This document shows positions 9,081-17,501 of a DNA stretch of 64,000 bases, piece by piece. Within the stretch, counting starts at the first letter, position 1. The number at the start of each line of letters is the position of its first letter. The notes under the pieces are model-generated. The model was not told the DNA's origin. It searched no databases and was given only the letters and a program-made list of their open reading frames with translations. The translations under genes were made by a program, and so were the position numbers. The stretch lies in contig WTXA01000002.1 in the NCBI GenBank assembly GCA_009773805.1, forward strand, positions 62,001 through 126,000. The letters are read 5' to 3'. This DNA comes from Fusobacteriota bacterium (lineage in GTDB: Bacteria > Bacillota > TC1).

Positions 9081-11573
9081 CTAAATAAACAAGGTAGTCC
9101 CAACATTCTCGTTACTAGTAATATAAGAACCTACCCCAGCATACTCGATACCATCAATAAGCTCCTCACGCTTAATACCCATAAGATCCATACTCATAGT
9201 ACAAGCAATAAACTTAACCCCAAGACCCATAGCCTTATCAATCATAACCTCAACCGCATCAACATTCTTAGACTTCATAATATACTTAATCATCAAAGGC
9301 CCGATACCCAACATATTCATTGAGGATAGAGGTAATCTTGAAGCACCCCTAGGCATCATCCAACCAAACATCTTCTCAATAACATTCTTCTTCGTCTTAA
9401 CCCTATTACTCCTACGAAGAGCATTAAGCCCCCAAAAAGTAAAGAAAATAGTAACATCCTTACCACTAGCAACAGCACCCTGAGCAATAATCATAGCAGC
9501 AATAGCCTTATCAAGCTCACCACTAAAAACCACAATAGTAGCATTCTTCTGATTCATGACTCCAACATTACAACTACCAGCCTCACCCTTGATTATCCTA
9601 ACAACAAAAGCACTACCCTCACCCTTAATTGACTCCAAAGTATGACCATTAGCCTTACACCACTCTACAATATCCTTAGTATAACCAAAATCAGTAGAAA
9701 CCACTTCAACCACATCACCAACACCAGCACCCTGTATAGCCTTATAGGTAGCCATCAAAGGACCAGGACACTGCAAACCACTCGCATCAACACGAATAAC
9801 CTTGCTACTTCCTGAACTAGCCACACTTGGCATTGGCGCAGGAATCTGCTGATCCATATCCATATCACCACAATTATTAAGATGACACTGCAACAAAGGC
9901 ACATACTTAAAATTCCTATAAGTCAGATAACCACCTGACAAATTATACAAATTAGAATAACCCATACCCTTTAATACCATAATAGCAATATGAGCACGAA
10001 GACCCACCTGACAAGTTACATAAATAGGAGCATCCTTAGCACAAGTAATCTCAGCAATCCTTTCCCTAAGCTCATCAACAGGAATATTATAGGAACCTTC
10101 AATCTTACCTACAGAAAACTCCAAAGAAGTCCTCACATCAAGCATCAAACCACCCTCTTTAACAAGCCTATCAATATCCTTAACATCAACCAACTCATAA
10201 AGACCAGCCTCAACATTCTCACCAATATATCCTAAAACATTAACAGGATCCTTCGCAGAAGAAAAAGGCGGAGCATAACACAACTCCAAAGAAGACAAAT
10301 CACTAATTCTACCTCCCATAGACATAACAGTAGCAATAACATCAATCCTCTTCTCCGTACCCTCCTTACCAATAGCCTGAGCTCCAAGAATCCTACCATC
10401 CAAAGGAGAATACAAAATCTTCAAAGAAATAGGAGTTGAACCAGGATAATATGAAGCATGATTAGCACGATGAGCACTAATCGACTTAAAACCAATACCC
10501 TTAACCAACAACTGAGCCTCAGTATTACCAGTACCAGCAGCAATCAAATCAAAAACCTTCAACACAGAAGACCCTAAAGTCCCCTTATACTCAACCTTCT
10601 TACCATTAATATGATCAGCCACTAACCTACCCTGTCTATTAGCAGGCCAAGCCAGAGGAATAGCAGTAGGACTACCATCTATTCTATCCTTAACCTCAAT
10701 AACATCCCCAATAGCATAAATATCCTCAACCACATCACCACTATTCACATCAAAAACCTGCAGACTTTCATTAGTCAAAATATGACCTCTTGGACCAACT
10801 GCAATCCCACCAGATTTACTCAACTTACTCTCAGGCACAACACCAATGGCAACCACCACCATGTCAGTCTTAATCTCACCACCACTATTTAAAACCACAG
10901 TTCTACCCTGATTCTTAAAATAGGTCACATACTCATTCAAAAGAATATTAACCCCATTCTTATTCATTTCCTCATGAAGAATCTGAGCCATTTCATAATC
11001 AAAAATCCTCAGCACCTGTGGTAATTTTTCAACAATTGTCACATTGATATTCTTTTCCCTAAGATTCTCAGCAATCTCCATACCAATAAACCCACCACCA
11101 ATAACCACAGCACTCTTCGGATTCTTCTCGGCAATAAAGTCCTTAATCCTATCTGTATCAGGAATATTCCTTAAAGAAAAAATACAATCAGAACCCTCAG
11201 TCCCCTCATAAACAGGAACAAAAGGATTAGCCCCAGGCGATAGTATTAACTTATCGTAAGACTCATCATAACTGACTTGCTTTCTTTTATCAAAAATAGT
11301 GACTGTCTTGTTTTCCCTATGAATAGCCACCACTTCACTAAAATTCCTAATATCCAACCTATATCTTTTAGACATAGCTTCAACAGTCTGCACCAACAAC
11401 TGATCCCTATCCTTGATGACCCCTCCAATATAGTAGGGAAGTCCACAATTGGCAAAAGAAATATATTCGTCCCTCTCAAACATAATAATCTCATCATTCT
11501 CATTCAATCTTCTTAAACGTGCAGCAGCAGTTGCCCCACCAGCTACACCACCGACTATTAATATCTTACTCAT
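9081..11573 (-). CDS. CoA-disulfide reductase-like FAD enzyme fused to rhodanese, TusA and DsrE domains
   Basis: 830 residues in four sulfur-handling modules. Residues 1-440 are an FAD/NAD(P)H pyridine nucleotide-disulfide oxidoreductase with the FAD motif GGVAGGATAAARLRRL and the single redox cysteine Cys43 in SFANCGLPYYIGG, as in CoA-disulfide reductase and NADH persulfide reductase. Residues about 460-555 are a rhodanese domain with Cys521 in TCQVGLR. Residues about 575-645 are TusA-like with Cys602 in the QCPGP motif. Residues about 670-830 are DsrE/DsrE2-like with Cys791 in FIACTMSM. The cysteines could pass a persulfide between domains; this layout is known in anaerobes and sulfur metabolisers. 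Likely role is (per)sulfide or CoA-persulfide reduction, not shown here. No partner gene is adjacent. Confidence 0.93.
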   Translation of the reverse strand: MSKILIVGGVAGGATAAARLRRLNENDEIIMFERDEYISFANCGLPYYIGGVIKDRDQLLVQTVEAMSKRYRLDIRNFSEVVAIHRENKTVTIFDKRKQVSYDESYDKLILSPGANPFVPVYEGTEGSDCIFSLRNIPDTDRIKDFIAEKNPKSAVVIGGGFIGMEIAENLREKNINVTIVEKLPQVLRIFDYEMAQILHEEMNKNGVNILLNEYVTYFKNQGRTVVLNSGGEIKTDMVVVAIGVVPESKLSKSGGIAVGPRGHILTNESLQVFDVNSGDVVEDIYAIGDVIEVKDRIDGSPTAIPLAWPANRQGRLVADHINGKKVEYKGTLGSSVLKVFDLIAAGTGNTEAQLLVKGIGFKSISAHRANHASYYPGSTPISLKILYSPLDGRILGAQAIGKEGTEKRIDVIATVMSMGGRISDLSSLELCYAPPFSSAKDPVNVLGYIGENVEAGLYELVDVKDIDRLVKEGGLMLDVRTSLEFSVGKIEGSYNIPVDELRERIAEITCAKDAPIYVTCQVGLRAHIAIMVLKGMGYSNLYNLSGGYLTYRNFKYVPLLQCHLNNCGDMDMDQQIPAPMPSVASSGSSKVIRVDASGLQCPGPLMATYKAIQGAGVGDVVEVVSTDFGYTKDIVEWCKANGHTLESIKGEGSAFVVRIIKGEAGSCNVGVMNQKNATIVVFSGELDKAIAAMIIAQGAVASGKDVTIFFTFWGLNALRRSNRVKTKKNVIEKMFGWMMPRGASRLPLSSMNMLGIGPLMIKYIMKSKNVDAVEVMIDKAMGLGVKFIACTMSMDLMGIKREELIDGIEYAGVGSYITSNENVGTTLFI

Positions 11574-11653: not shown

Positions 11654-11693
11654 TTAAAAAAATATCTAGTATGCTTAATTCCACATACTAGAT
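11654..11693 (-). terminator. Rho-independent terminator ending the Opu/CDGSH/DUF1294 operon
   Basis: Stem TATCTAGTATG / CATACTAGATA (plus 11663-11673 and 11683-11693) overlapping the DUF1294 stop codon; on the minus strand it is followed by TTTTTTT. Confidence 0.8.
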
Positions 11694-11992
11694 AATTGAA
11701 AATACCAAATAAAAAAAATAATGACAGCCAAATTAAAAACCAAGGCAATAGGAAGAAGAATCCTAAACTTAGTCTTTTTGGACTTATGCCTAAAAACAAA
11801 AGATCCCAACCAACAACCAAGCCCTCCCATAAGAAAAGCACAGGCCAACAAAGTTGACTCCTTAACTCTCCAATATCCTCTGCCTGACTTGAACTTATCA
11901 ATACCCATTAAGAAGAAAGTCATCAAATTCCAAATAAGTAATAAAATTACAAAATAAACTAAATATTCACTAATCGCATTATCAATACCCAT
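11675..11992 (-). CDS. DUF1294 family small membrane protein
   Basis: 105 residues with three to four membrane segments. The family signature is visible: MGIDKFKSGRGYWRVKESTL followed by an aliphatic helix ending GGLGCWLGSFVFRHKSKKTK. That motif (D-K-x3-GxxRVPE-like, then GG-x2-G-x3-G-x5-RHKxxK) defines DUF1294. Function unknown. The start has TTGGAGATGAT upstream, and the gene begins only 14 bases after the stop of the CDGSH/glutamate-synthase fusion, so it is the last gene of that operon. Confidence 0.88.
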   Translation of the reverse strand: MGIDNAISEYLVYFVILLLIWNLMTFFLMGIDKFKSGRGYWRVKESTLLACAFLMGGLGCWLGSFVFRHKSKKTKFRILLPIALVFNLAVIIFFIWYFQLSSMWN

Positions 11993-12006
11993 ATCATCTC
12001 CAACTT

Positions 12007-13860
12007 TTATACATGTATTATGTCAATATTTTCCGAAACCTCCAGGCTAGTAGTCATCAGGTCATCAATTCCAAGAAGATGAATGTCATCTCTACCATTA
12101 GATCTGGCAAAAGCCTTCAGCTCTTCCGCTGTCCCTCTATAGAAATTCTCAAAACCTAAGAGTGCTTTCTTCTCATTAAACAATGCCCGAAGGCTCTCAT
12201 CCTGAGTCGCAATCCCAGTAGGACAAGTACCTGTATGACATATTCTAGACTGCCTACAACCAATAGCTATAAGAGACGCTGTAGCCAAAGCAACCGCATC
12301 AGCACCTAGAGCCAGACCTTTAGCAATATCAGAACTATCCCTAAAGCCACCAGTAACACATAAAGTCACATCACTACCTACACTATCAAGATACTTCCTA
12401 GCTCTTCTAATCGCAAAGATAGCAGGAACTCCAACATTATCTTTAATAAACCTAGGAGTCGAACCTGTAGCTCCTCCTCTACAATCTATAGTAATAAAAT
12501 CAGGATCAGCCCTCAAGGCAAATTCAAGATCCTCCTCAATATGACCTGCAGCTAACTTTATTCCTACTGGTCTCCCATCAATCACTTCTCTTATCCGACC
12601 AACCCTATTAATCAAATCATCAATATTATCAACACCAGCAAGTCTTGCAGGAGCTATAAATTCCTCTCCCATTTCGAGCTTTCTAATTTTAGCAATCTCA
12701 GGAGTCACCTTCTCCTTAGGTAAATGTCCACCAATACCTGGTTTGACCCCTTGACCAATTTTTATTTCAACAGCATCAGCCTTTTTCATAATATCCTCAT
12801 CAAAAGAAAAAGCAGCAGTACCCTGTTCGTAAATATATATTTTAGCTGCCTTTCTTGACTCAGGCAACATACCACCTTCACCAGAACACATAGCAGTATT
12901 AACTAGAGAAGACCCCTTGGCAAGAGCCACCTTAGCCTCCTTAGAAATTGCCCCATAGGACATATGGGAAACATAAAAAGGTAAATCTAAAACCAAAGGA
13001 TACTTGGCTCTTTTACCAATAATGGTCTTAAGATTAACAGCAACCTCCTCATTTAAAGGCATCCTCTGTAACTGAACACCCTTAAACAAAATACTCTTAA
13101 AATCCACAAATTTCTCTAAAGTTCTCATGGAGGAATTCATACTTTTACCAGACTCTGCTAATCGTTTAATTACTTCCACCTTATTATCAAATTCCAAATC
13201 CTCATCAGCTTTATAGTTTAACATATCCTGCAACTTACCATATTCATTAGTTTTAAGACACCAATGTTGACCACTACAAAAGGGCTTATTTTTTGAATGA
13301 CCACATTTACAAAGAGCATAGTGATCGTTAGTTTCAGGTTTATCCTCATCTTCTAATATAATAGAACCCTTGACTAATAAGGGGCCATTTTCTGCAAGTT
13401 CAATTTCTTCCTTATCATAATATTCATCATATTTAATATTATCTACTGTATAACTAAGTGCCCCTGACGGACATTTTCTAATGGTCTCAATAATTTTTTC
13501 AATACTAGCTCCATTAGGATCAATCCAAGGTTCAGTTCTCATTCTAAAAACCTTAGGTAACCCATCTGTACAGTAACCAGCATGGGAACAGATTCCCCTA
13601 TCATCATGAATGGTAATTTCCTTACCTATATATTCTTCCAACTTTCTTGGCACCCTATCTTCTAACTTCTCACCACTGAAGTCAATTCTCCCGTGACTAC
13701 CATCACAAAATGGTTTACTCTTAGCTTCACCACATCTGCATAATGCAACAGCTGGTTCACCAATCTTCCCAGTACACCCATCCACGTCCTTTAGTCCTTC
13801 AAGATTAGTTACCACATAAGGTCCATTTTTAGAAATTTTAATAATTGCATCTTTATTCAT
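12007..13860 (-). CDS. CDGSH - ferredoxin - CDGSH - glutamate synthase (FMN) fusion oxidoreductase
   Basis: 617 residues. Order: a CDGSH [2Fe-2S] domain at about 20-58 (CRCGEAKSKPFCDGSH); a Fer4_19-type single-cluster ferredoxin domain at about 70-145 (GICSHAGYC ... RKCPSGAL); a second CDGSH domain at about 160-205 (CKCGHSKNKPFCSGQH); then a glutamate-synthase-like FMN barrel from about 250 (GEGGMLPES, KIGQGVKPGIGGHLP, DCRGGATGSTPRF) with the [3Fe-4S]-type motif CRQSRICHTGTCPTG. No glutaminase domain is present, so an amide-nitrogen reaction like GltB is unlikely without a partner; related GltB2-like proteins are of uncertain function. Fourth gene of a five-gene operon, 11 bases after the ABC ATPase. 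The domain calls are firm, the substrate is unknown. Confidence 0.92.
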   Translation of the reverse strand: MNKDAIIKISKNGPYVVTNLEGLKDVDGCTGKIGEPAVALCRCGEAKSKPFCDGSHGRIDFSGEKLEDRVPRKLEEYIGKEITIHDDRGICSHAGYCTDGLPKVFRMRTEPWIDPNGASIEKIIETIRKCPSGALSYTVDNIKYDEYYDKEEIELAENGPLLVKGSIILEDEDKPETNDHYALCKCGHSKNKPFCSGQHWCLKTNEYGKLQDMLNYKADEDLEFDNKVEVIKRLAESGKSMNSSMRTLEKFVDFKSILFKGVQLQRMPLNEEVAVNLKTIIGKRAKYPLVLDLPFYVSHMSYGAISKEAKVALAKGSSLVNTAMCSGEGGMLPESRKAAKIYIYEQGTAAFSFDEDIMKKADAVEIKIGQGVKPGIGGHLPKEKVTPEIAKIRKLEMGEEFIAPARLAGVDNIDDLINRVGRIREVIDGRPVGIKLAAGHIEEDLEFALRADPDFITIDCRGGATGSTPRFIKDNVGVPAIFAIRRARKYLDSVGSDVTLCVTGGFRDSSDIAKGLALGADAVALATASLIAIGCRQSRICHTGTCPTGIATQDESLRALFNEKKALLGFENFYRGTAEELKAFARSNGRDDIHLLGIDDLMTTSLEVSENIDIIHV

Positions 13861-13871
13861 GATTAATCTCC

Positions 13872-14846
13872 TTATATATCAAGTAAATGCTTATACACAG
13901 AATCTATAGTAAAATACCCAATTAATTTACCCTCATCATCATGGACTACCAATACATTAGTCTTATTCTCAATACAAGTCTTAATACCACGTAGGGCTGA
14001 CAAGTTACCATCAACTGATACCATACTATCCTTAGCATCGACTTCAACAGCAGCTACACCATCAATACCAAACAAATCAATACAATCTCTTATCTTAACT
14101 GAATTCAAATAGGAAATAAAATCCTTTGAACCAAAAAAGTTCTCTGCATAGTCTGTACGTTCCTTTGATAAAACAAAATCCTTTTTCAATTTATCCCTAT
14201 CGATTCTACCTTCATTTAAAAGAACAATCCTCGACCCAAGCTTAACTGCTTCTTCTATATCATGAGTTACAAAAACAATAGTCTTTCCAAGCATGCCATG
14301 AATCTTGGTTATCTCTTCTTGAAGTCCTCTTCTAGTTATCTCATCAACAGCTCCAAACGGTTCATCCATCAAAATAATATCAGGGTTAGTAGCCAAGGCC
14401 CTAGCAACTCCTATACGTTGCTGTTGTCCACCACTTAGCTCTCTTGGATATCTAGATAAATAACTAGCATCAAGACCAACTAATTCAATTAATTCCAAGG
14501 CTCTTTTATGTTGCTCAACCTTATCAATCTTTATCAAATTCAAAGTATAGCAAATATTTCTTTCAACACTAAGATGAGGAAATAGGCCTACTTGTTGAAT
14601 AACATAACCCATACTTCTTCTTAATTCTATTTTATTCCAGTCCTCAATTTTCTTTCCCCTAATTGAAATTATACCCTCATCAGCCTTTAATAAGCCATTA
14701 ATAAGTTTAATAATTGTCGTCTTACCACAACCTGATGGACCAAGGATAACCACAAATTCACCCTCGTCAATATTAAGGTTAAAGTCCTCTAGAACCATAA
14801 CTTCCTCAAATGTTTTCTTAATATGTTCGAAGGTAATTATTGACAT
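13872..14846 (-). CDS. opuBA: Glycine betaine/choline-type ABC transporter ATP-binding protein
   Basis: 324 residues. The ATPase has Walker A GPSGCGKTT, ABC signature LSGGQQQR, Walker B IILMDEPFGAVD and H-loop FVTHDIEE. A C-terminal CBS-like region (residues about 240-324, ending in VLVVHDDEGKLIGYFTIDSV) is typical of OpuA/ProV/OpuB ATPases. Drives uptake of a quaternary ammonium or related compatible solute. The start codon overlaps the stop of the binding-protein gene, so translation is probably coupled. The symbol follows the OpuB/OpuC gene type; substrate not shown. Confidence 0.9.
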   Translation of the reverse strand: MSIITFEHIKKTFEEVMVLEDFNLNIDEGEFVVILGPSGCGKTTIIKLINGLLKADEGIISIRGKKIEDWNKIELRRSMGYVIQQVGLFPHLSVERNICYTLNLIKIDKVEQHKRALELIELVGLDASYLSRYPRELSGGQQQRIGVARALATNPDIILMDEPFGAVDEITRRGLQEEITKIHGMLGKTIVFVTHDIEEAVKLGSRIVLLNEGRIDRDKLKKDFVLSKERTDYAENFFGSKDFISYLNSVKIRDCIDLFGIDGVAAVEVDAKDSMVSVDGNLSALRGIKTCIENKTNVLVVHDDEGKLIGYFTIDSVYKHLLDI

Positions 14847-15730
14847 TATATTAAGCCTTTCTCTTCTAGAAAATCTCTGGCTACCTCTTCAGGATCTTGT
14901 TTCTCCTTATCAACGTAGAAATTAAGAAGAATCATTTCCTCTTCACTAATTTTTCCAGCAAGCTTATCAAGCACAGCCCTTAGTTCAGGATATTTCTCTA
15001 AAGTTTCTTCTCTGACTAAAGTTGCCGCTTGATATGGGGGAAAGAAATTTTTATTGTCTTCTAATACTTTTAAATCATATTCTTTCAATAAACCATCAGT
15101 AGAAAAAGCGTTAATGACATCAACTTGGTCATTACCAATTGCTTCATATTTTAAACCGACATCAATTTCCTTAGTATCCTTGAAATTTAAACCATAAACT
15201 TTCTTCAAACCATTATAGCCATCTTCTCTTTCAAAGAAATCATATTCTGCACCAAAGGTTAATTGGTTACTTACCTTTGCTAAATCATCATAGGTTTCCA
15301 GATTATATTTCTTGGCAATATCATTTTTTACTGCCAAGGCATAGGTATTGTTGAAGCCATATATGTCCAACCATTGTATGCCAAACTCTTCTTTATATTT
15401 TGTCTTTACCGCTTCATATAGTTCATTAGGATCGGCTATCAAATCTTCTTTTAGTACAAAAAGCCAGCCTGTGCCTGTATATTCAGGATAGATATCAATT
15501 TCACCCTTTAACATAGCAGGATGTATATTAGAAGTACCACCACCGATACCAAGTTTCTTTTCAACTTTAATATCAGTATGTTCCTCTATTAATAGGGTTA
15601 ATATCTCAGCTAGAATGTATTGCTCTGTTACTGGTTTTGAGGCTATCACCACTTTCTTCTCATCCTTGTCACAGCCAACAAATATGGCAACCATGAAAAT
15701 TACTAAAATAAGTGTAAATATTTTTTTCAT
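14846..15730 (-). CDS. opuBC: Glycine betaine/osmoprotectant-binding lipoprotein
   Basis: 294 residues, lipoprotein signal with lipobox VAIFVGC. The segment ASKPVTEQYILAEILTLLIE and YPEYTGTGW are typical of OpuAC/OpuBC-type binding proteins, as is the C-terminal EEVARDFLEEKGLI. Binds the solute outside the membrane for the adjacent permease. Sits between permease (14-base gap) and ATPase (overlapping). No glycine-betaine-specific aromatic box was confirmed by eye, so the ligand could also be choline, carnitine or another trimethylammonium compound. Confidence 0.88.
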   Translation of the reverse strand: MKKIFTLILVIFMVAIFVGCDKDEKKVVIASKPVTEQYILAEILTLLIEEHTDIKVEKKLGIGGGTSNIHPAMLKGEIDIYPEYTGTGWLFVLKEDLIADPNELYEAVKTKYKEEFGIQWLDIYGFNNTYALAVKNDIAKKYNLETYDDLAKVSNQLTFGAEYDFFEREDGYNGLKKVYGLNFKDTKEIDVGLKYEAIGNDQVDVINAFSTDGLLKEYDLKVLEDNKNFFPPYQAATLVREETLEKYPELRAVLDKLAGKISEEEMILLNFYVDKEKQDPEEVARDFLEEKGLI

Positions 15731-15744
15731 CTTTAATTCCTCCC

Positions 15745-16392
15745 TTAGGTTCCAAGTATTTTCTTCCTAATATTCTTTTCTATAACACCTAGGAATAAAT
15801 CTATAATAATCGCTAGTAATGCAACTAACAAACTTCCTGCTACTGTCATTTCAGGGAAATAGGTGGTTATACCTCTCCAGATTGCTACCCCAAGACCACC
15901 AGCTCCAATAAAGGAAGCAATAGCCCCCAGGGCAATGGTCATTATCACCATAGTTCTAAAACCTGCAAAAATAACTGGCAGAGCTAGTGGCAATTGCACC
16001 TTGTATAATAGTTGAGAATTAGTAGTTCCCATACCAATTGCTGATTCAATTAGGAAAGGATCTACTTCTGTAATACCAACGTAGGTATTCCTAATAATTG
16101 GTAACAGACCATATATAACTAGGGCAATCAAGGCACTTTTGAAACCTATGCCTGTAATAGATACAAAAAAACCGAACAAGGCTATTGATGGTATGGTATA
16201 GATCAAGTTTACAACAGTCATTATTATATTGGCCATAGTCTTACTTCTAGTCATGATTATTCCTAATATGATACCTATGACACTAATAATTACAATGGCC
16301 ACAAAGGTCAAGTAAATATGTTCTATAAACAATTGTAGGAAAAATTCCCATCTTTCCTTATATAGTTCAATTACCCTAAATACAAAACCCAT
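15745..16392 (-). CDS. opuBB: Betaine/osmoprotectant ABC transporter permease
   Basis: 215 residues with about six membrane spans. Contains the permease EAA-like loop ESAIGMGTTNSQLLYKVQLP and GAGGLGVAIWRGITTYF, both hallmarks of OpuB/ProW-type permeases. First gene of the operon permease - binding protein - ATPase - CDGSH fusion - DUF1294. Its upstream region (16393-16509) carries two identical inverted repeats. AGGAAAG stands before the ATG. Confidence 0.92.
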   Translation of the reverse strand: MGFVFRVIELYKERWEFFLQLFIEHIYLTFVAIVIISVIGIILGIIMTRSKTMANIIMTVVNLIYTIPSIALFGFFVSITGIGFKSALIALVIYGLLPIIRNTYVGITEVDPFLIESAIGMGTTNSQLLYKVQLPLALPVIFAGFRTMVIMTIALGAIASFIGAGGLGVAIWRGITTYFPEMTVAGSLLVALLAIIIDLFLGVIEKNIRKKILGT

Positions 16393-16422
16393 GGAACACC
16401 AACTTTCCTGTTTATATATATC

Positions 16423-16509
16423 TCTTATTTCATTTTAACACCTAATAATGAAATAAGAATACTATTTCACGCTTCTTATTTCATTTTAGACCCTTATAAT
16501 GAAATAAGA
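16423..16509. repeat. Two identical 12-bp inverted repeats upstream of the Opu operon
   Basis: Copy 1: TCTTATTTCATT at 16423-16434 and its exact complement at 16447-16458. Copy 2: the same arms at 16474-16485 and 16498-16509, overlapping the last codons and stop of xdhC. Spacers are 12 bases in both (TTAACACCTAAT and TTAGACCCTTAT). The two units are 51 bases apart. They fit a paired operator for a dimeric regulator; copy 2 could also fold as an RNA hairpin at the xdhC end. Confidence 0.7.
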
Positions 16510-17501
16510 GGTTCAATTAACACATCCATAATTCCACCACATGCCATACCCTCTTCTTCAGCAATATCACCAGTCATGTCTACTCTTTGAACCATATAAC
16601 CACCGTTTTTAAGGATTTTCCTGGCATTAACTATAACTTCACCTTCACTACAGCCACCACCAATGCTACCACTAATACGCCCATCGCTATAAACCAACAT
16701 CTTGGCCCCAGCCTTCCTTGGAACAGAACCTTTAGTCCCAATAATAGTAACTAATGCCTTAGGCGAGGAATCATTCATACTTAACTCTTTAAGTACTTCT
16801 AGATCAAACTCTGGCCAATTGGTCTTTTTGCTCATACCCCTTCTTCTTTGCTGTATTAATTGAGCAACTATGGAAAAAGCAATCTCATCAGGAGTGACAG
16901 CCCCAATATCAAGACCAATAGGTGCCATTAAACGATCAATCACATCCTGACTATAACCCTCAATTAACAACTGTTCCTTAGTATTTCTAACACGTCTCCT
17001 GGAGCCTATCATTCCTACATATGCAGTTTCATGTTTTAAAACAGCCTTTAAGCAATCCATATCATGTCTATGCCCTCTGGTAATAATAGCAACAAAAACT
17101 GACCTGTTAAAATTAACCATCCCAAAGGATTTCCCGAAACTTTCACAAATAACACGCTCTGCATCAGGGAACCTTGCAGCATTGGCAAAAGATGGTCTAT
17201 CATCAATAACTGTAACCCCAAAACCTGCCCTTGATGCATATAAAGATAAGGGCTTAGCAATGTGTCCACCACCAAAGATAACAAGCTTTGGGGCAGGAAA
17301 ATATGGCTCTAGAAGGTATTTCTCCTCAACCATCATAGGATTACCAGATTCTAACACATCGCTACCTACCACTATCTCGTTTGTATCAAAATCTTCTTCA
17401 AGAACCAATTCTTTTTTAAAGAAATCTACTAATCTCGTAACTATAACTGCCTTACGTCCAGATTCTAATTCCAGAATCAACCTCTTATATTCTTTTTTCA
17501 T
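16494..17501 (-). CDS. XdhC-family protein (Mo-hydroxylase maturation), Rossmann domain first
   Basis: 335 residues. Residues about 65-215 form a Rossmann domain (FGGGHIAKPLSLYASRAGF, AIITRGHRHDMDCLKAVL, YVGMIGSRRRV, LMAPIGLDIGAVTPDEIAFS), the XdhC_C type. Residues about 230-335 are an XdhC/CoxI domain (IIGTKGSVPRKAGAKMLVY, GSIGGGCSE, and the C-terminal GMACGG motif). The canonical XdhC chaperone has these in the opposite order, so this is the swapped arrangement. XdhC inserts or protects the sulfurated Mo cofactor of xanthine dehydrogenase-like enzymes; no such enzyme is in the window, though purine deaminases and ModA are. Separate from the downstream Opu operon by two inverted repeats. Confidence 0.9.
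   Translation of the reverse strand: MKKEYKRLILELESGRKAVIVTRLVDFFKKELVLEEDFDTNEIVVGSDVLESGNPMMVEEKYLLEPYFPAPKLVIFGGGHIAKPLSLYASRAGFGVTVIDDRPSFANAARFPDAERVICESFGKSFGMVNFNRSVFVAIITRGHRHDMDCLKAVLKHETAYVGMIGSRRRVRNTKEQLLIEGYSQDVIDRLMAPIGLDIGAVTPDEIAFSIVAQLIQQRRRGMSKKTNWPEFDLEVLKELSMNDSSPKALVTIIGTKGSVPRKAGAKMLVYSDGRISGSIGGGCSEGEVIVNARKILKNGGYMVQRVDMTGDIAEEEGMACGGIMDVLIEPLISL

Follow-up and report, generated by a model that had tools for sequence, protein, structure and literature searches.

Why should a quaternary-amine importer stand in one run of genes with an iron-sulfur (Fe-S) flavoprotein? The question is raised by a locus of Fusobacteriota bacterium (GenBank assembly GCA_009773805.1), which was analysed within a window of 64,000 nucleotides (contig WTXA01000002.1, positions 62,001 to 126,000), and it bears on how anaerobes use and re-reduce ergothioneine. 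Five genes of the same (-) strand lie within 11675-16392 of the window, encoding a permease, a lipoprotein binding protein, an ATPase, a fusion protein that we call CDC-GltS (CDGSH, ferredoxin-like module, CDGSH, glutamate synthase domain), and a DUF1294 protein. From the permease on, they are separated by 14, -1, 11, and 14 bases, and the run with gaps of at most 14 bases described in the initial annotation was thus confirmed by the open reading frames. We propose, with a probability of about 0.5, that the operon may combine ergothioneine-type import with redox defence, because an EgtU-like importer adjoins an enzyme whose relatives occur in ergothioneine-synthesis or peroxide-defence operons. 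Such an operon would link the import of a betaine that has both a carboxylate and a thiol (most likely ergothioneine) to a redox-defence Fe-S flavoprotein, and its suggested role is redox protection, not mere betaine uptake.

The importer had been described as betaine-type. This proved too narrow, since the best solved-structure sequence match of its binding protein is H. pylori EgtU (HpEgtU): phmmer placed 8dp6/8dp7 first (E 1.1e-83, ~48% identity), and 8dp7 is HpEgtU bound to ergothioneine. The AF2 model of the binding protein (pLDDT 93.5) matched 8dp6 in Foldseek with TMt 0.96 and an rmsd of 1.3 A. The aromatic cage, the cage Asn, and the carboxylate Lys/Arg (K32, Y84, N128, Y130, R168, F209, and Y233) are identical to those of HpEgtU, and D170 is common to both proteins as well. 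A tree split (100/99) separated 11 choline/betaine-type proteins from the side of the window protein and HpEgtU, the placement of HpEgtU itself being weak. The system resembles H. pylori EgtUV and S. pneumoniae EgtU (SpEgtU) in binding-protein fold, sequence, and cage and carboxylate residues (8dp6, 8dp7, 7txl; PMC9732360, where the aromatic cage of such binding proteins is discussed), but its permease and binding protein are encoded by two genes, G244/F293/Y337 are missing, and CDC-GltS and DUF1294 are added. The lipoprotein, we infer, would capture ergothioneine, its trimethylammonium group held by an aromatic cage and its carboxylate by K32 and R168; the permease and ATPase would bring it into the cell. 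No EgtD was found in the genus, and ergothioneine would therefore have to be imported.

The same genes could also form an ordinary osmolyte importer (for glycine betaine, carnitine, or proline betaine), co-transcribed in one genus with a general stress flavoprotein to which its cargo is chemically unlinked. The transporter is of the OpuC-type family, its linkage to the fusion is confined to one genus, and the carboxylate-binding K32/R168 presumably occur also in the glycine-betaine protein AfProX. This explanation is possible but unlikely, given that the best structural match by sequence is EgtU and not ProX/OpuCC, that the split from the betaine/choline-type proteins is supported, and that redox genes surround importer orthologues. 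MsrA and MsrB come after the ATPase of the orthologous importer in a sister genus (G006), and in two other genomes (G282 and G369) the importer is followed by an NAD(P)H disulfide reductase whose CxxxxC is intact, while neither kind of neighbour was found at the 11 choline/betaine-type loci. Counted by locus, redox neighbours occurred at 4 of 10 EgtU-side loci and at 0 of 11 choline/betaine-type loci (Fisher, p ~0.035, calculated by hand).

At one locus (L135, 5618-9037), an EgtU-like importer shares one run with MsrA and MsrB, and a divergent gene upstream encodes an MsrP/sulfite-oxidase-like lipoprotein. At L178 (3519-8737), a corrinoid protein-like gene was seen close to an EgtU-side importer, which suggests that some EgtU-branch importers feed methyl-transfer pathways instead.

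Domains of the operon proteins were called as Pfam matches over the cut-off, zf-CDGSH being matched twice in the fusion. For CDC-GltS, these matches and the ligand sets agreed with the earlier description of two CDGSH motifs, one ferredoxin-type module, a [3Fe-4S]-like motif, and a flavin mononucleotide (FMN) barrel, with no glutaminase domain. The C-x5-C-x4-C motif aligns with the cluster cysteines of the Azospirillum and Synechocystis glutamate synthases (AzGltS/Fd-GltS). With all claimed domains found and this motif aligned, the fusion is seen to consist of a CDGSH protein of type 7 ('CDC') with a GltS FMN barrel attached. Its Fer4_19 module has no more than three obvious cysteines (C91, C97, and C130), and the AF2 model of the CDC half is of low confidence because the alignment is shallow. 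Seven CISD types have been listed, in which types 7 and 5 are known separately and the combination of CDC with GltS does not appear (PMC3174974). The fusion has the layout of type 7-CDC (CDGSH - DUF1271 - CDGSH, 3Cys-1His ligand sets) and the GltS FMN fusion of type 5, which consists of tandem type-6 CISDs ~20 residues apart, fused to GltS (PMC3174974); it combines both types and falls outside type 5, Fer4_19 standing between the two CDGSH motifs. The architecture and the linkage are new, while the modules are already known.

CDC-GltS shares the FMN barrel and the [3Fe-4S] motif with canonical glutamate synthases (GltB, Fd-GltS). It might be an ammonia-dependent glutamate synthase that provides glutamate as a counter-ion or osmolyte beside betaine uptake, with electrons delivered via the CDGSH/ferredoxin modules. 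K373 and R393, which we take to belong to the 2-oxoglutarate site region, are kept, and glutamate chemistry is possible because of this lysine and arginine; E328, presumably near FMN, is kept too. Foldseek with the GltS-domain model ranked 7mfm, 1ofd, and 1ofe first (1ofd being Fd-GltS with 2-oxoglutarate), and CDC-GltS is the sole Glu_synthase domain in the 1.68 Mb genome. We nevertheless regard a glutamate synthase as improbable. The protein differs from the canonical enzymes in having no glutaminase, no GXGXG domain, and no GltD partner; no separate GltB1 gene was found in the operon or among its neighbours, and no gltB1/B3/gltD partners adjoin CDC-GltS. Moreover, Q978 of Fd-GltS is His here, though archaeal-type split GltS also have His, and the genes that accompany relatives of CDC-GltS are rubrerythrin/PerR or EanB, not nitrogen genes.

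Many further close relatives of the GltS core carry other N-terminal carriers, namely one or two rubredoxins, a Rieske module, or a pair of [4Fe-4S] clusters; in this family, at least four exchangeable electron carriers serve a single catalytic core. Rubrerythrin is a frequent neighbour of rubredoxin-GltS genes in Bacillota and Bacteroidota, and a Fur/PerR-type regulator adjoins some of them as well; these loci resemble the rbr-perR-sor-CD0828 layout of C. difficile. CD0828, which has the rubredoxin-GltS make-up and is reduced by NADH, is required for survival of H2O2 and air, its deletion costing 3-5 logs of H2O2 survival (PMC11980386). CDC-GltS is like CD0828 and the rubredoxin-GltS relatives in its short GltS FMN/[3Fe-4S] core, the absence of a glutaminase, and an N-terminal carrier (PMC11980386). 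The carrier, however, is CDGSH-Fer4_19-CDGSH and not rubredoxin, and the neighbour is an importer and not rubrerythrin/PerR.

The link to ergothioneine synthesis came from Bacteroidota. In Bacteroidetes SZUA-53 (L003), a CDC-GltS of the same architecture is adjoined not by an importer but, in order, by a CDC-Rieske-TPP (thiamine pyrophosphate) enzyme, a triple rhodanese (EanB), DUF427, and EgtD. The triple rhodanese matched the sulfurtransferase structures 6ktv/6h98 (E 3e-203), which we take to be C. limicola EanB entries, and the EgtD scored above the NCBIfam cut-off. Another EanB cluster (G785) has Rieske-GltS at the corresponding position: Rieske-GltS, a 275-aa protein, EanB, DUF427, and EgtD form one run there. 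In G516, EanB lies close to Rieske-GltS and to a 276-aa protein related to that of G785. Four of the sampled Bacteroidota genomes combine a close GltS core with an EanB of at least 67% identity, and in three of them the two genes lie within ~3 kb; if G516 and G785 are taken as one lineage, 2 of 3 remain, with a random-placement chance of ~2e-5 in a test framed after L003 was seen. Within the order of the window organism, the search for EanB returned only distant YnjE-like sulfurtransferases (34-39%), unlinked to the operon.

Rieske-GltS of Bacteroidota and Nitrospirota is often followed by an uncharacterised protein of 245-290 aa, often with a 'DDSHTN'-like motif (examples in Table 1); for the copy at L096, Pfam gave no match. 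In TPP enzymes of the pyruvate oxidase/acetolactate synthase type, or in the Rieske part of such enzymes, the carrier modules are those of the neighbouring GltS-like gene, hinting at shared electron transfer.

For CDC-GltS, we infer an electron route and a chemical step. It would move single electrons via the CDGSH and ferredoxin-like clusters to or from the [3Fe-4S]/FMN centre, a route modelled on what is thought for the rubredoxin-fused CD0828, and these electrons would keep ergothioneine or a thiol/peroxide-defence partner reduced. The neighbouring CoA-disulfide-reductase (CoADR)/rhodanese protein would probably act together with CDC-GltS. Supplying electrons for defence or for thiol chemistry is a better fit than a reaction at the betaine nitrogen. 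A dedicated reaction on ergothioneine itself is a tentative part of this proposal, carrying roughly half of its probability. A further idea, the most novel but an unlikely one, would make CDC-GltS and Rieske-GltS a new class of enzymes: ergothioneine oxidoreductases, dedicated to this molecule in anaerobes, that would regenerate its oxidised form or use it as an electron mediator. They would have been recruited to operons for anaerobic ergothioneine synthesis and for ergothioneine import via interchangeable Fe-S input modules. Reductive catabolism of ergothioneine (e.g., of thiourocanate or the sulfur), as a source of nitrogen or sulfur or as an electron sink and not for protection, would also agree with the importer and with the adjoining sulfur-handling CoADR-rhodanese-TusA-DsrE2 gene; yet the nearest homologue of CDC-GltS stands in a biosynthetic cluster, where a degradative enzyme would be futile, and we give catabolism little credence.

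A reductive or demethylating step on imported betaine, in line with the demethylation or deamination first suggested for this locus, is the least probable of the explanations. The linkage to a quaternary-amine importer is tight and the organism has a glycine-reductase operon, but neither an MttB-family methyltransferase nor a betaine-type GrdH was found in the genome. The one selenoprotein-B gene lies within the canonical glycine-reductase operon and scores 407 bits for betaine GrdH versus 518/516 for glycine/sarcosine. Betaine catabolism in this organism was rejected for want of MttB and betaine-type GrdH. Furthermore, demethylation of amines is not a known reaction of GltS barrels, and the relatives of the fusion are without betaine genes.

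The operon is ~76% identical in three further species of the genus (G001, G003, and G004), and the five-gene run is therefore more than chance. All five genes are kept in these congeners (the permease at 90-93% identity), and a CaCA antiporter has been inserted ahead of DUF1294; the G003 contig stops inside the ATPase, and its binding protein was found on another contig. The CoADR/rhodanese/TusA/DsrE2 fusion is always the next gene in all three (~79% identical); it is linked to the operon within the genus and is only a putative operon member. In a genome of the same family (G005; L136, 4642-7464), Opu-type transporter genes seem broken into fragments, and CDC-GltS is absent.

Among 398 Bacillota genomes, the complete fusion was confined to this genus and a single sister genus, and among 395 Bacteroidota genomes it occurred only once (L003); no record of the plasmid collection covered 80% of it. 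The L003 copy is the closest full-length relative outside the genus (62.5% over 610 aa, versus 57-58% for order-mates). All CDC forms grouped together with full support in the core tree, where the Bacteroidota copy is nearer to the window genus (0.58 changes per site) than the order-mates are (0.85), which suggests a transfer of CDC-GltS between Bacteroidota and this genus.

Several observations weigh against ergothioneine import plus redox defence. Both lines of evidence that lead to ergothioneine consist solely of genomic context and similarity of sequence. In Foldseek, choline-type sensor proteins of engineered origin rank equal to or slightly higher than EgtU. The SpEgtU determinants G244, F293, and Y337, mapped onto the window protein by motif alignment, correspond to V34, Y84, and F126 (S, Y, and F in HpEgtU, which likewise is without the three specificity residues), and EgtU relatives without these determinants may bind other quaternary amines (PMC9732360); 'EgtU-like' is therefore a lead and not proven membership. 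After loci were collapsed to lineages, the Fisher test on the hand-scored redox neighbours was not significant (0.2). Electron transfer from CD0828 to Rbr and Sor was slow (PMC11980386). Finally, fusion and transporter are both present but ~220 kb apart in the sister genus (G006), and their linkage is therefore only genus-level; G008 has the fusion and no transporter. The importer-fusion linkage noted initially thus holds within the genus, where the genes are packed, co-oriented, and conserved, but is not general.

If the ergothioneine link is true, a conserved redox partner for ergothioneine would be named, and a function lead would be gained for type 7 CDGSH proteins as well as for the short GltS-like flavoproteins that are still orphans, C. 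difficile CD0828 among them. In the part of the open literature covered, the proposed ergothioneine link did not turn up: ergothioneine and CDGSH were named together only in two reviews on ferroptosis and cell death, and the portion of the EanB literature covered yielded no mention of glutamate synthase.

Table 1. Coordinates of the operon, of the parts of CDC-GltS, and of genes at related loci.
Feature	Locus	Position	Strand	Details
OpuCB/EgtU-type permease, 215 aa	window	15745..16392	-	BPD_transp_1 E 5e-24; gene separate from binding protein
OpuAC-type lipoprotein binding protein	window	14846..15730	-	OpuAC Pfam; closest solved structure by sequence H. pylori EgtU
ProV/OpuCA-type ATPase, 324 aa	window	13872..14846	-	ABC_tran E 4.5e-37
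CDC-GltS, 617 aa	window	12007..13860	-	CDGSH - Fer4_19 - CDGSH - glutamate-synthase FMN/[3Fe-4S] domain
First CDGSH motif (3Cys-1His [2Fe-2S]), aa 41-56	window	13693..13740	-	CRCGEAKSKPFCDGSH; ligand set CRC..CDGSH
Fer4_19 (DUF1271) ferredoxin-like module, aa 77-138	window	13447..13632	-	E 6.4e-22
Second CDGSH motif, aa 184-199	window	13264..13311	-	CKCGHSKNKPFCSGQH; ligand set CKC..CSGQH
GltS FMN-barrel domain	window	12094..13185	-	Pfam Glu_synthase aa 226-589, E 6e-91
[3Fe-4S] motif C-x5-C-x4-C in barrel, aa 535-546	window	12223..12261	-	GCRQSRICHTGTC
DUF1294 small membrane protein	window	11675..11992	-	E 4.4e-21
CoA-disulfide-reductase-like - rhodanese - TusA - DsrE2 fusion	window	9081..11573	-	next same-strand gene downstream
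Rieske-GltS-associated 245-290 aa protein	L210	2924-3751		
Rieske-GltS-associated 245-290 aa protein	L107	9324-10154		
Rieske-GltS-associated 245-290 aa protein	L096	2658-3392		
Rieske-GltS-associated 245-290 aa protein	L217	7590-8453		
TPP enzyme with matching carriers	L003	7848-10448		CDC-Rieske, Bacteroidota
TPP enzyme with matching carriers	L217	6155-7492		Rieske, Nitrospirota

The best NCBIfam model for the ATPase was TIGR01186 proV, with a score below the cut-off. Upstream of the permease, at window 16393-16493, lie three copies of AATGAAATAAGA (two direct and one inverted), which are not kept in congeners. Directly upstream of these, at window 16494-17501, stands an XdhC-family molybdenum hydroxylase maturation gene, which is present in G004 and not in G001.

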